A DNA stretch of 11,872 bases from Candidatus Fermentibacterales bacterium (lineage in GTDB: Bacteria; Fermentibacterota; Fermentibacteria; Fermentibacterales; JAFGKQ01): positions 1 to 11,872 of the forward strand of contig JAFGKQ010000065.1 in the NCBI GenBank assembly GCA_016928495.1, read 5' to 3'. Position numbers and translations under genes: made by a program. The notes under the pieces are model-generated. The model saw only the letters and a list, made by a program, of their open reading frames with translations, made no database searches and had not been told where the DNA came from. Each line of letters opens with the position of its first letter. The first letter of the stretch is position 1. Positions 3,452 through 5,213 of the stretch are shown one piece after another.

Positions 3452-3480
3452 AATATTGCTTTGAAGGTCCTCGAGGTCAA
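3452..3480 (-). promoter_or_regulatory. Probable sigma-70 promoter for carD
   Basis: On the minus strand TTGACC (3480-3475) is followed after 17 bases by AATATT (3457-3452). The -35 box matches five of six consensus positions and the -10 box four. The AT-rich patch stands out in this GC-rich DNA. Predicted transcription start is near 3445, giving a leader of about 30 bases with a GAGGGAG ribosome site at 3429-3423. The -35 box contains the TGA stop of the upstream pseudokinase gene. Confidence 0.6.
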
Positions 3481-5213
3481 TCCGATCCGAGGAGCACCCA
3501 GATGTCGGGAACGGGCAGGCCCTCCGGCAGCCCGCCGGGCCCGTCTGGCACTGCCTGCAGGTAGCTCCTCAGCACCTGCTCGGCACCGCTCGAAACACTG
3601 AGGCTGTCGTTGTAGAGAAGCAGGGTGGCCTGCAGGGGCACCGGCAACCCGAGCTCCTCGTTGGGTGAGCGATCGCCGTCCCGGACGTCCGTGACGGACA
3701 GGAGACACTCGGACCCGTCAACGCTGATCGCCCTGCCGTCGATCTTCTGCTTCAGCCAGGCGGCGGCGCCCAGTCCATCGAGGGTGTACTGAAGCCCGCA
3801 GTTCACCACATCGACGAAGAGCGTGCAGGCGGGTGCAACGGGATCGCGGATGAAGGACTCGTTCGTTCCCGCGTGGCTCAGATCGGTCCCAAGCATGATC
3901 GTGATGTCGACCGGCCGGATCTCCAGAGCCTCCGAGCTGTCGCGCGCGGCGAGCAGGGACGCATGACGGAAGAGGTCCTGCTCCTCGAGGGGGACGAAGG
4001 GATCCGCTCTCCTGCACATCACCGCCCCCAGGGATCTGAGGCCCTGGCCGGTGGAGGGGTAGACCTGTGAGTAGCCCCCCGCGACGCCAGTCCTGAAGCT
4101 GGAGGCCTCGCCCGATCGCCCCGAGTAGTTGGAGACCCAGATCACGATCTCGTCCTCAGGAACCAGCGGATCCGGCTCGATCGCCGGATCTGCCGTGATC
4201 GAGTCGGGAGCGCCGGCATCGGTTCGCAGGGAGTCCTCGGGCGCAACGAAGCGCGTCGAGTCGGCAGGCTGCCCGTCCGCCGTGGGAGATGGTCTGCCGG
4301 AGCAGCTCCAGGGCTTGATGACGAAGACGAGGACAAGAACCGCCGCGACCAGCACGGCGCCGAGCAGAGGTGCCACGGCACGGCGCTTCATCCCATGGCG
4401 GGATCTCGATTTCCGCAACCCCGCCAGCGCCTCGCGGCCGTTTTCCGGCGATCGAAGGCTGGCTGTTGCCGGCCCCCTGGCGCCCCCTCCTCTTCCGGCG
4501 ATCTCCGACCTCACGGCTTCGATGGCCCTGGCCAGCATGACGAGGTTCGGATGCCTGTCGGCGGGCTTCTCGGCGACCATCTTCTCGATGAGCTGGCTCA
4601 CTCTCGAGCCCAGCGCGTTCCAGGTCTCTATCTGGCCGCCTCTCTCGTCACTGCCGGCGATCAGCCTGAACATGAGAGTCCCGAGAGCGAAGACGTCGCT
4701 TCGAGGGTCCCTGGGTATCGAGCCGATCGCCTCGGGCGCCGAGAAGGGCAGCCTCGGAACGCCAGCCCTTCCCGCCCTGAGGAAGGCCTTCCCGGCCTCG
4801 TCCAGCATCAGCATCTCGGGTCCGACATAGCCGAGGACATGGCTGTTCTCGTGGAGGCGCCTGATGATGGTGCAGAGCCTCTCGCCGATCGAGAGCGCCC
4901 TGTCGACCCCGAGCGCAGCCGGCTTCTCCTCGACGGCCTGAGCAAGGCCCTTCTCCTGGTAGAGCAGCACCGTTCCCCCATCGGGGAGCTTGTGCCTTTC
5001 CGAGGGGTAGACGATGCCCGCGAGTCCCTCCGGGAAGGACATCCTCATGGCAGGGTTGCCGTCTCCGGAGGGCTGCCTGGTGACCTCGGCAAGCAGCTCG
5101 CCCTCGTCCCGCCTCACCCGCGCGAGGAGATACCCCTCGCGCTGATAGAGCACCGTGGAGGCGGAGATGCCGAGGCCGGCAGCCTCCCCGTCAGAAAGCG
5201 CTGGATTCGACAC
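3477..5213 (-). CDS. Membrane-anchored pseudokinase with tandem LytR_C-like external repeats
   Basis: A 578-residue bitopic protein. Residues 15-235 follow a Hanks-type kinase fold: APE motif at 159-161 (in FSAPEAIG), DVFALG at 173-178 standing for the DxWxxG motif, and a C-lobe helix with ADRHP (218-222). The catalytic residues are gone: the catalytic loop reads [10 protein letters not shown] (128-137), without the HRD Asp or the metal-binding Asn; the DFG position reads RAG (146-148); the VAIK lysine position appears to be Val44. A basic stretch leads into one membrane segment (about 279-299), then an acidic, Pro-rich linker (305-353), and two external repeats ending [10 protein letters not shown] (435-444) and [10 protein letters not shown] (569-578), resembling LytR_C (PF13399). 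It should bind partners rather than phosphorylate. The GTG start overlaps the guaB end by 23 bases. Kinase-fold call firm; LytR_C call tentative. Confidence 0.8.

Follow-up and report, generated by a model that had tools for sequence, protein, structure and literature searches.

A transmembrane pseudokinase with putative tandem LytR_C-like outer domains, conserved in the Fermentibacterota

The locus and its gene neighborhood

We analyzed a gene that encodes a predicted pseudokinase joined, through one membrane segment, to two outer domains of LytR_C type, in a contig of a Candidatus Fermentibacterales bacterium (JAFGKQ010000065.1; the window is the whole stretch analyzed, 11,872 nucleotides). 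The features of the gene and its neighbors are listed in Table 1. An initial annotation of the same DNA had given the right coordinates for the reading frame, to which the minus strand must be added, and had correctly located the motifs APE (residues 159-161) and DVFALG (173-178), as well as two ten-residue outer strands at 435-444 and 569-578. The reading frame is a working gene under purifying selection: each of the eight pairs tested had a dN/dS far smaller than 1, and omega did not exceed 0.38 (≤0.38) in any region of the protein in those pairs.

Table 1. Features of the pseudokinase gene and its immediate neighbors, in window coordinates
Feature	Position	Strand	Residues, evidence and remarks
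Pseudokinase-TM-(LytR_C)2 gene	3477..5213	-	578 aa, GTG start; ORF and translation
Cytosolic pseudokinase domain	4509..5171	-	About 15-235; profile, AF2 model, VIA
Beta3 strand LLAEV in the VAIK position	5082..5096	-	40-44; Glu43 invariant, without Lys
Loop replacing the alphaC helix	5010..5078	-	46-68; model; WP..G...P conserved in relatives
GYVGPE replacing the HRD loop	4815..4832	-	128-133; Asp to Tyr129 and Lys to Gly131, both 30/30
AGR replacing DFG	4767..4775	-	147-149; short activation segment to APE
APE, retained	4731..4739	-	159-161
AlphaF region (ten residues), retained	4680..4709	-	169-178; DPRS invariant
Single transmembrane segment	4311..4379	-	About 279-301; N-terminus inside; hydropathy 2.98
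Outer domain 1, LytR_C-like	3876..4157	-	353-446; hhalign; model order b-a-b-b-a-b
Outer domain 2, putative diverged LytR_C-like	3480..3845	-	457-578; hhalign; elements in the same order, with one more strand
guaB (IMP dehydrogenase), upstream and overlapping	5191..6672	-	PF00478, E 1.8e-157; synteny
Overlap of pseudokinase start and guaB end	5191..5213	-	23 nt; in 30/30 loci the earliest start codon falls 11-23 nt within guaB
carD, downstream gene	2930..3415	-	PF21095 and PF02559; synteny
hflX, downstream gene	1490..2806	-	PF16360, PF13167 and PF01926; synteny

The pseudokinase is probably translated in step with guaB, whose reading frame it overlaps. Across 22 loci of the phylum, the conserved order is queA and HK, followed by EIIA, a zinc-ribbon gene, guaB, the pseudokinase gene, carD, hflX, orf148 and an LPG-synthase-TM gene. 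Within the limits of the contigs, this ten-gene block (window 1-11872) is conserved, apart from a few individual genes that went undetected in some loci. The 148-aa frame orf148 (1014-1460) has no Pfam match and is syntenic in most loci. On the plus strand, a large ORF at 7583-10174, presumably a PAS/GAF sensor histidine kinase judging from its sequence, is transcribed away from the guaB block.

The cytosolic half

For the inner half, we built a profile from the window protein and 29 orthologues (30 sequences in all). It matched PDB kinases at an E value of 1.8e-9 (hmmsearch), with GYlGPEN aligned to the HRDLKPEN loop, and the AF2 model of this half (pLDDT 87.5) had PknB as its best fold match (VIA Z 18.4 over 219 aligned residues, rmsd 4.1). 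The kinase fold that the initial annotation had proposed for residues 15-235 was therefore found by both profile and structure prediction, as a bilobal kinase fold. The window protein by itself gives a weak Pkinase match and falls below the Pfam cut-offs for both PF00069 and PF13399, the two families against which a profile check had been suggested; profiles made from its relatives are required.

All three residues whose loss defines a pseudokinase (the beta3 lysine, the HRD aspartate and/or the DFG aspartate) are replaced throughout the alignment, and none of the 30 aligned proteins keeps any one of them. The beta3 core (residues 40-45) has an invariant Glu43 and no Lys in 30/30, Tyr129 stands in place of the HRD aspartate in 30/30, and position 147, which we assigned to the DFG aspartate manually by following the order of strands in the model, is Ala or Gly in 30/30. 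These losses had been claimed for the window protein and extend to the family. The loss of the catalytic-loop Asn had been claimed along with them; it is true of the window protein (Met134) but not a family trait, since 13 of the 30 sequences keep the Asn. In the predicted structure, strands three and four are not separated by an alphaC helix. To judge from the alignment, the inner half is presumably catalytically dead and probably does not bind ATP.

The stretch from the pseudo-active site through alphaF is the most conserved of the kinase domain, with a mean major-residue fraction of 0.65-0.72 versus 0.39-0.58 in the rest. Since this old active site is conserved best despite the loss of catalysis, a binding role for the kinase half seems likely. 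The degraded pocket might bind a small molecule, such as a purine nucleotide given the presence of guaB, whose level the protein would report at the membrane. Glu43, Tyr129 and Gly131 are invariant and cluster with Arg150 (present in 29/30) at the old active site although catalysis is gone, and the overlap with guaB occurs in 30/30 loci. However, a glycine-rich loop and the beta3 Lys are lacking, as is the alphaC helix in the model, and a surface that binds protein would explain the invariance just as well; we consider a small-molecule pocket rather improbable. Far less credible is a repurposed enzyme like SelO or SidJ, with AMPylation or glutamylation activity. Some bacterial pseudokinases have acquired other activities (PMC12599244), but the pocket Lys, the catalytic Asp and the DFG Asp are each replaced in 30/30 sequences here, and the predicted fold is missing the alphaC helix.

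Membrane topology and the outer domains

A positive-inside bias in 29 of the 30 sequences places the N-terminus inside the cell. The linkers on either side of the membrane segment are poorly conserved among the 30 aligned proteins, and conservation in both outer domains equals or exceeds that in most of the kinase half. The proposed architecture of a pseudokinase, one membrane segment and two LytR_C-type domains is supported, more weakly so for domain 2.

Outer domain 1 is clearly LytR_C-like in its profile and predicted topology: hhalign matched it to LytR_C with probability 95 and a score of 44.0, and the highest score among 100 column shuffles was 19.5. For domain 2, the probability was 44.6 and the score 26.7, against a shuffle maximum of 19.8 (100 column shuffles), and its assignment as LytR_C-like, by topology and profile, is weak. 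Aligned directly with each other, the two domains scored 21.0 versus a shuffle maximum of 20.4, which is marginal. The suggestion that the outer half holds two copies of one domain thus stands for domain 1 as a LytR_C-like domain and less firmly for domain 2, and the comparisons did not show the two outer parts to be unrelated folds.

The model of the outer half had a pLDDT of 82.6. When it was compared with 969 chains (VIA), only 6q10, an ortholog of Rv2700 (Z 4.1, rmsd 2.5, 81 aligned), and 2m5y, Rv0431/VirR (Z 4.0, rmsd 3.2, 79 aligned), reached Z 2. Rv2700/Cei and VirR are both LytR_C proteins. A Z of 4 is low, yet the sole two structural matches to this predicted model agree with the sequence profiles in pointing to LytR_C. 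Both matches extend over the whole outer model (region 3480-4166), first strand to last (5..229 and 6..228), yet only about 80 residues are aligned, which may point to an exchange of a strand between the two domains. Foldseek returned nothing with E below 0.001 for the outer half, and its top-ranked hits were azoreductases of very low probability; VirR 2m5y ranked 13th with the highest probability listed, 0.35. A nucleoside hydrolase or deoxyribosyltransferase was also considered for the outer half and rejected, as the PDB profile matches were at chance level only (E 0.16 and up).

Distribution

Among 99 genomes searched, the pseudokinase was found in 41 of the 42 belonging to the same order, the window's own genome counted. 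The other 57 were without it, save for two weak matches to the kinase region (E 2.2e-5 and 5.7e-4), and in a few drafts the protein was broken across contig ends or matched as two pieces. A profile of the outer half searched against 385 genomes recovered those 41 again, together with two matches of marginal significance (E 7e-4 and 9e-4). We also scanned a contig collection, in which a single-sequence query gave no matches but an alignment query did; among the matches listed, full-length relatives occurred only in the Fermentibacterota, under the names Hyd24-12, Fermentibacter, Aegiribacteria and Sabulitectum. Among those listed matches, many of the kinase loci from outside the phylum encode kinases with HRD or HGD motifs, and none has LytR_C: in the ORFs of loci L084-L148, LytR_C matched only the phylum orthologues L144 and L145. 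Restriction of the pseudokinase to the Fermentibacterota, as far as sampled, is well supported, though not proven.

Potential partners in the phylum

Bacterial pseudokinases are little studied, and the comparison proposed initially was with MviN/FhaA, a relay in which an FHA protein docks onto a pseudokinase phosphorylated by an active Ser/Thr kinase. In M. tuberculosis, MviN is likewise a membrane-linked pseudokinase with a connection to the envelope (PMC12599244). However, just 5 of 41 phylum genomes have a kinase above the Pfam cut-off besides the orthologues, and 4 of 41 have FHA domains, versus 41 of 42 for the pseudokinase, and both partners are absent from most of the searched drafts that keep the gene. 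Because the relay needs both of these rare proteins, we find it very hard to credit here, and the initial analogy is not supported. A protein nearly universal in a phylum that mostly lacks clear Ser/Thr kinases is also unlikely to need the usual kinase partners for its role.

In mycobacteria, the LytR_C domains of VirR bind one another and those of Lcp, mediating both the self-association of VirR and its contacts with Lcp (PMC11832169). LCP enzymes (LytR_cpsA_psr, PF03816) were absent in all 41 phylum genomes, and PF03816 was not found in the pseudokinase protein itself. Since no LCP enzyme was found there, LytR_C in the Fermentibacterota probably does not serve glycopolymer ligases. A LytR_C match was present in 38 of the 42 phylum genomes. 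The window's own genome encodes a LytR_C-only protein (L001:1441-1983) beside a gene that we take, from its sequence, to be rsfS. This LytR_C-only protein is possibly a partner of the pseudokinase's outer half, a candidate because it is nearly universal in the phylum.

Relation to known systems and proposed function

The protein resembles several known systems in part. PASTA-type Ser/Thr kinases such as PknB and Stk1 share the order of kinase, membrane segment and repeated outer domains, but the present protein lacks the catalytic residues and has domains of LytR_C type in place of PASTA. VirR (Rv0431) and Cei (Rv2700), which are LytR_C-only proteins, have one membrane segment followed by an outer LytR_C-type domain, whereas here the domains are in tandem and joined to a cytosolic pseudokinase. 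The MviN/ActPs3 pseudokinases are membrane-linked dead kinases with an envelope connection, but MviN is a MurJ-type transmembrane protein with the motifs VALT / Lsidhpsr / Y-- (PMC12599244). The replacements here are different (LLAEV / LGYVGPEM / AGR), no MurJ-type transmembrane part was recognized, and the phospho-partners are mostly missing from the phylum. The combination of LytR_C with a pseudokinase appeared in no paper of the literature searched (subscription papers and InterPro lay outside the search), and a 2025 review of bacterial pseudokinases covers seven families without naming LytR.

The same plan occurs in EssB/YukC, the pseudokinase of type VIIb secretion, in which a cytosolic N-terminal pseudokinase that has lost all three catalytic motifs is followed by one membrane segment and an outer C-terminal domain (PMC12599244). 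It raises the alternative that the present protein is a purely structural envelope component, whose pseudokinase only dimerizes or recruits membrane machinery and senses nothing. One ortholog also gave a sub-threshold YukC match (E 0.022). However, PF10140 found nothing in the 41 phylum genomes, so membership of the YukC/EssB family itself was rejected; Pfam and synteny revealed no secretion genes in the neighborhood, and the outer half matches LytR_C structures. A structural part of this kind is unlikely, though of the alternatives it deserves the most weight.

The reading that we put first, at about even strength, is that the protein, catalytically dead and probably unable to bind ATP, serves as a transmembrane scaffold or sensor that couples the state of the envelope to a cytosolic partner. 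The initial suggestion that it may relay envelope state to such a partner is plausible. Dead kinases are known to act as membrane scaffolds in EssB/YukC and MviN (PMC12599244). Against a scaffold or sensor stand the absence of the LCP enzymes, which are the reported partners of LytR_C, and the reliance of domain 2 on a weak profile signal plus topology. Every step beyond the anatomy is one that we infer. The outer pair would make LytR_C-to-LytR_C contacts with itself at the cell-wall side, by analogy with what is reported for VirR, and possibly also with the LytR_C-only protein encoded beside rsfS. The inner pseudokinase would hold a cytosolic partner through its most conserved face (GY.GPE, RG.P..F..PE and DPRSD), for which GuaB would be the first candidate because of the reading-frame overlap, with CarD and HflX next. 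Contact with any of the three is only a guess, because the synteny covers the wider ten-gene block. The outcome would be an envelope state coupled to the growth machinery without phosphorylation.

A more specific and quite doubtful version is a phylum-specific envelope-to-growth checkpoint, in which the outer pair would read the state of the wall and the dead kinase would directly bind and tune GuaB, and with it GTP supply, or the transcription-ribosome machinery of CarD and HflX. If true, such a checkpoint would be a phosphorylation-free counterpart of PASTA-kinase signaling. The protein brings together the topics of pseudokinases and LytR_C domains in a little-known bacterial phylum where LCP enzymes were not found (41/41 genomes).

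Finally, some genomes contain 569-aa matches to the Pkinase profile, one of which (L146) presumably is a UbiB/ABC1 protein, as its sequence reads. The only Pkinase match above the cut-off in the window's own genome (L140:1429-2280, contig C65) has the motifs VAIR, HGD and DLG, with its beta3 Lys also replaced.
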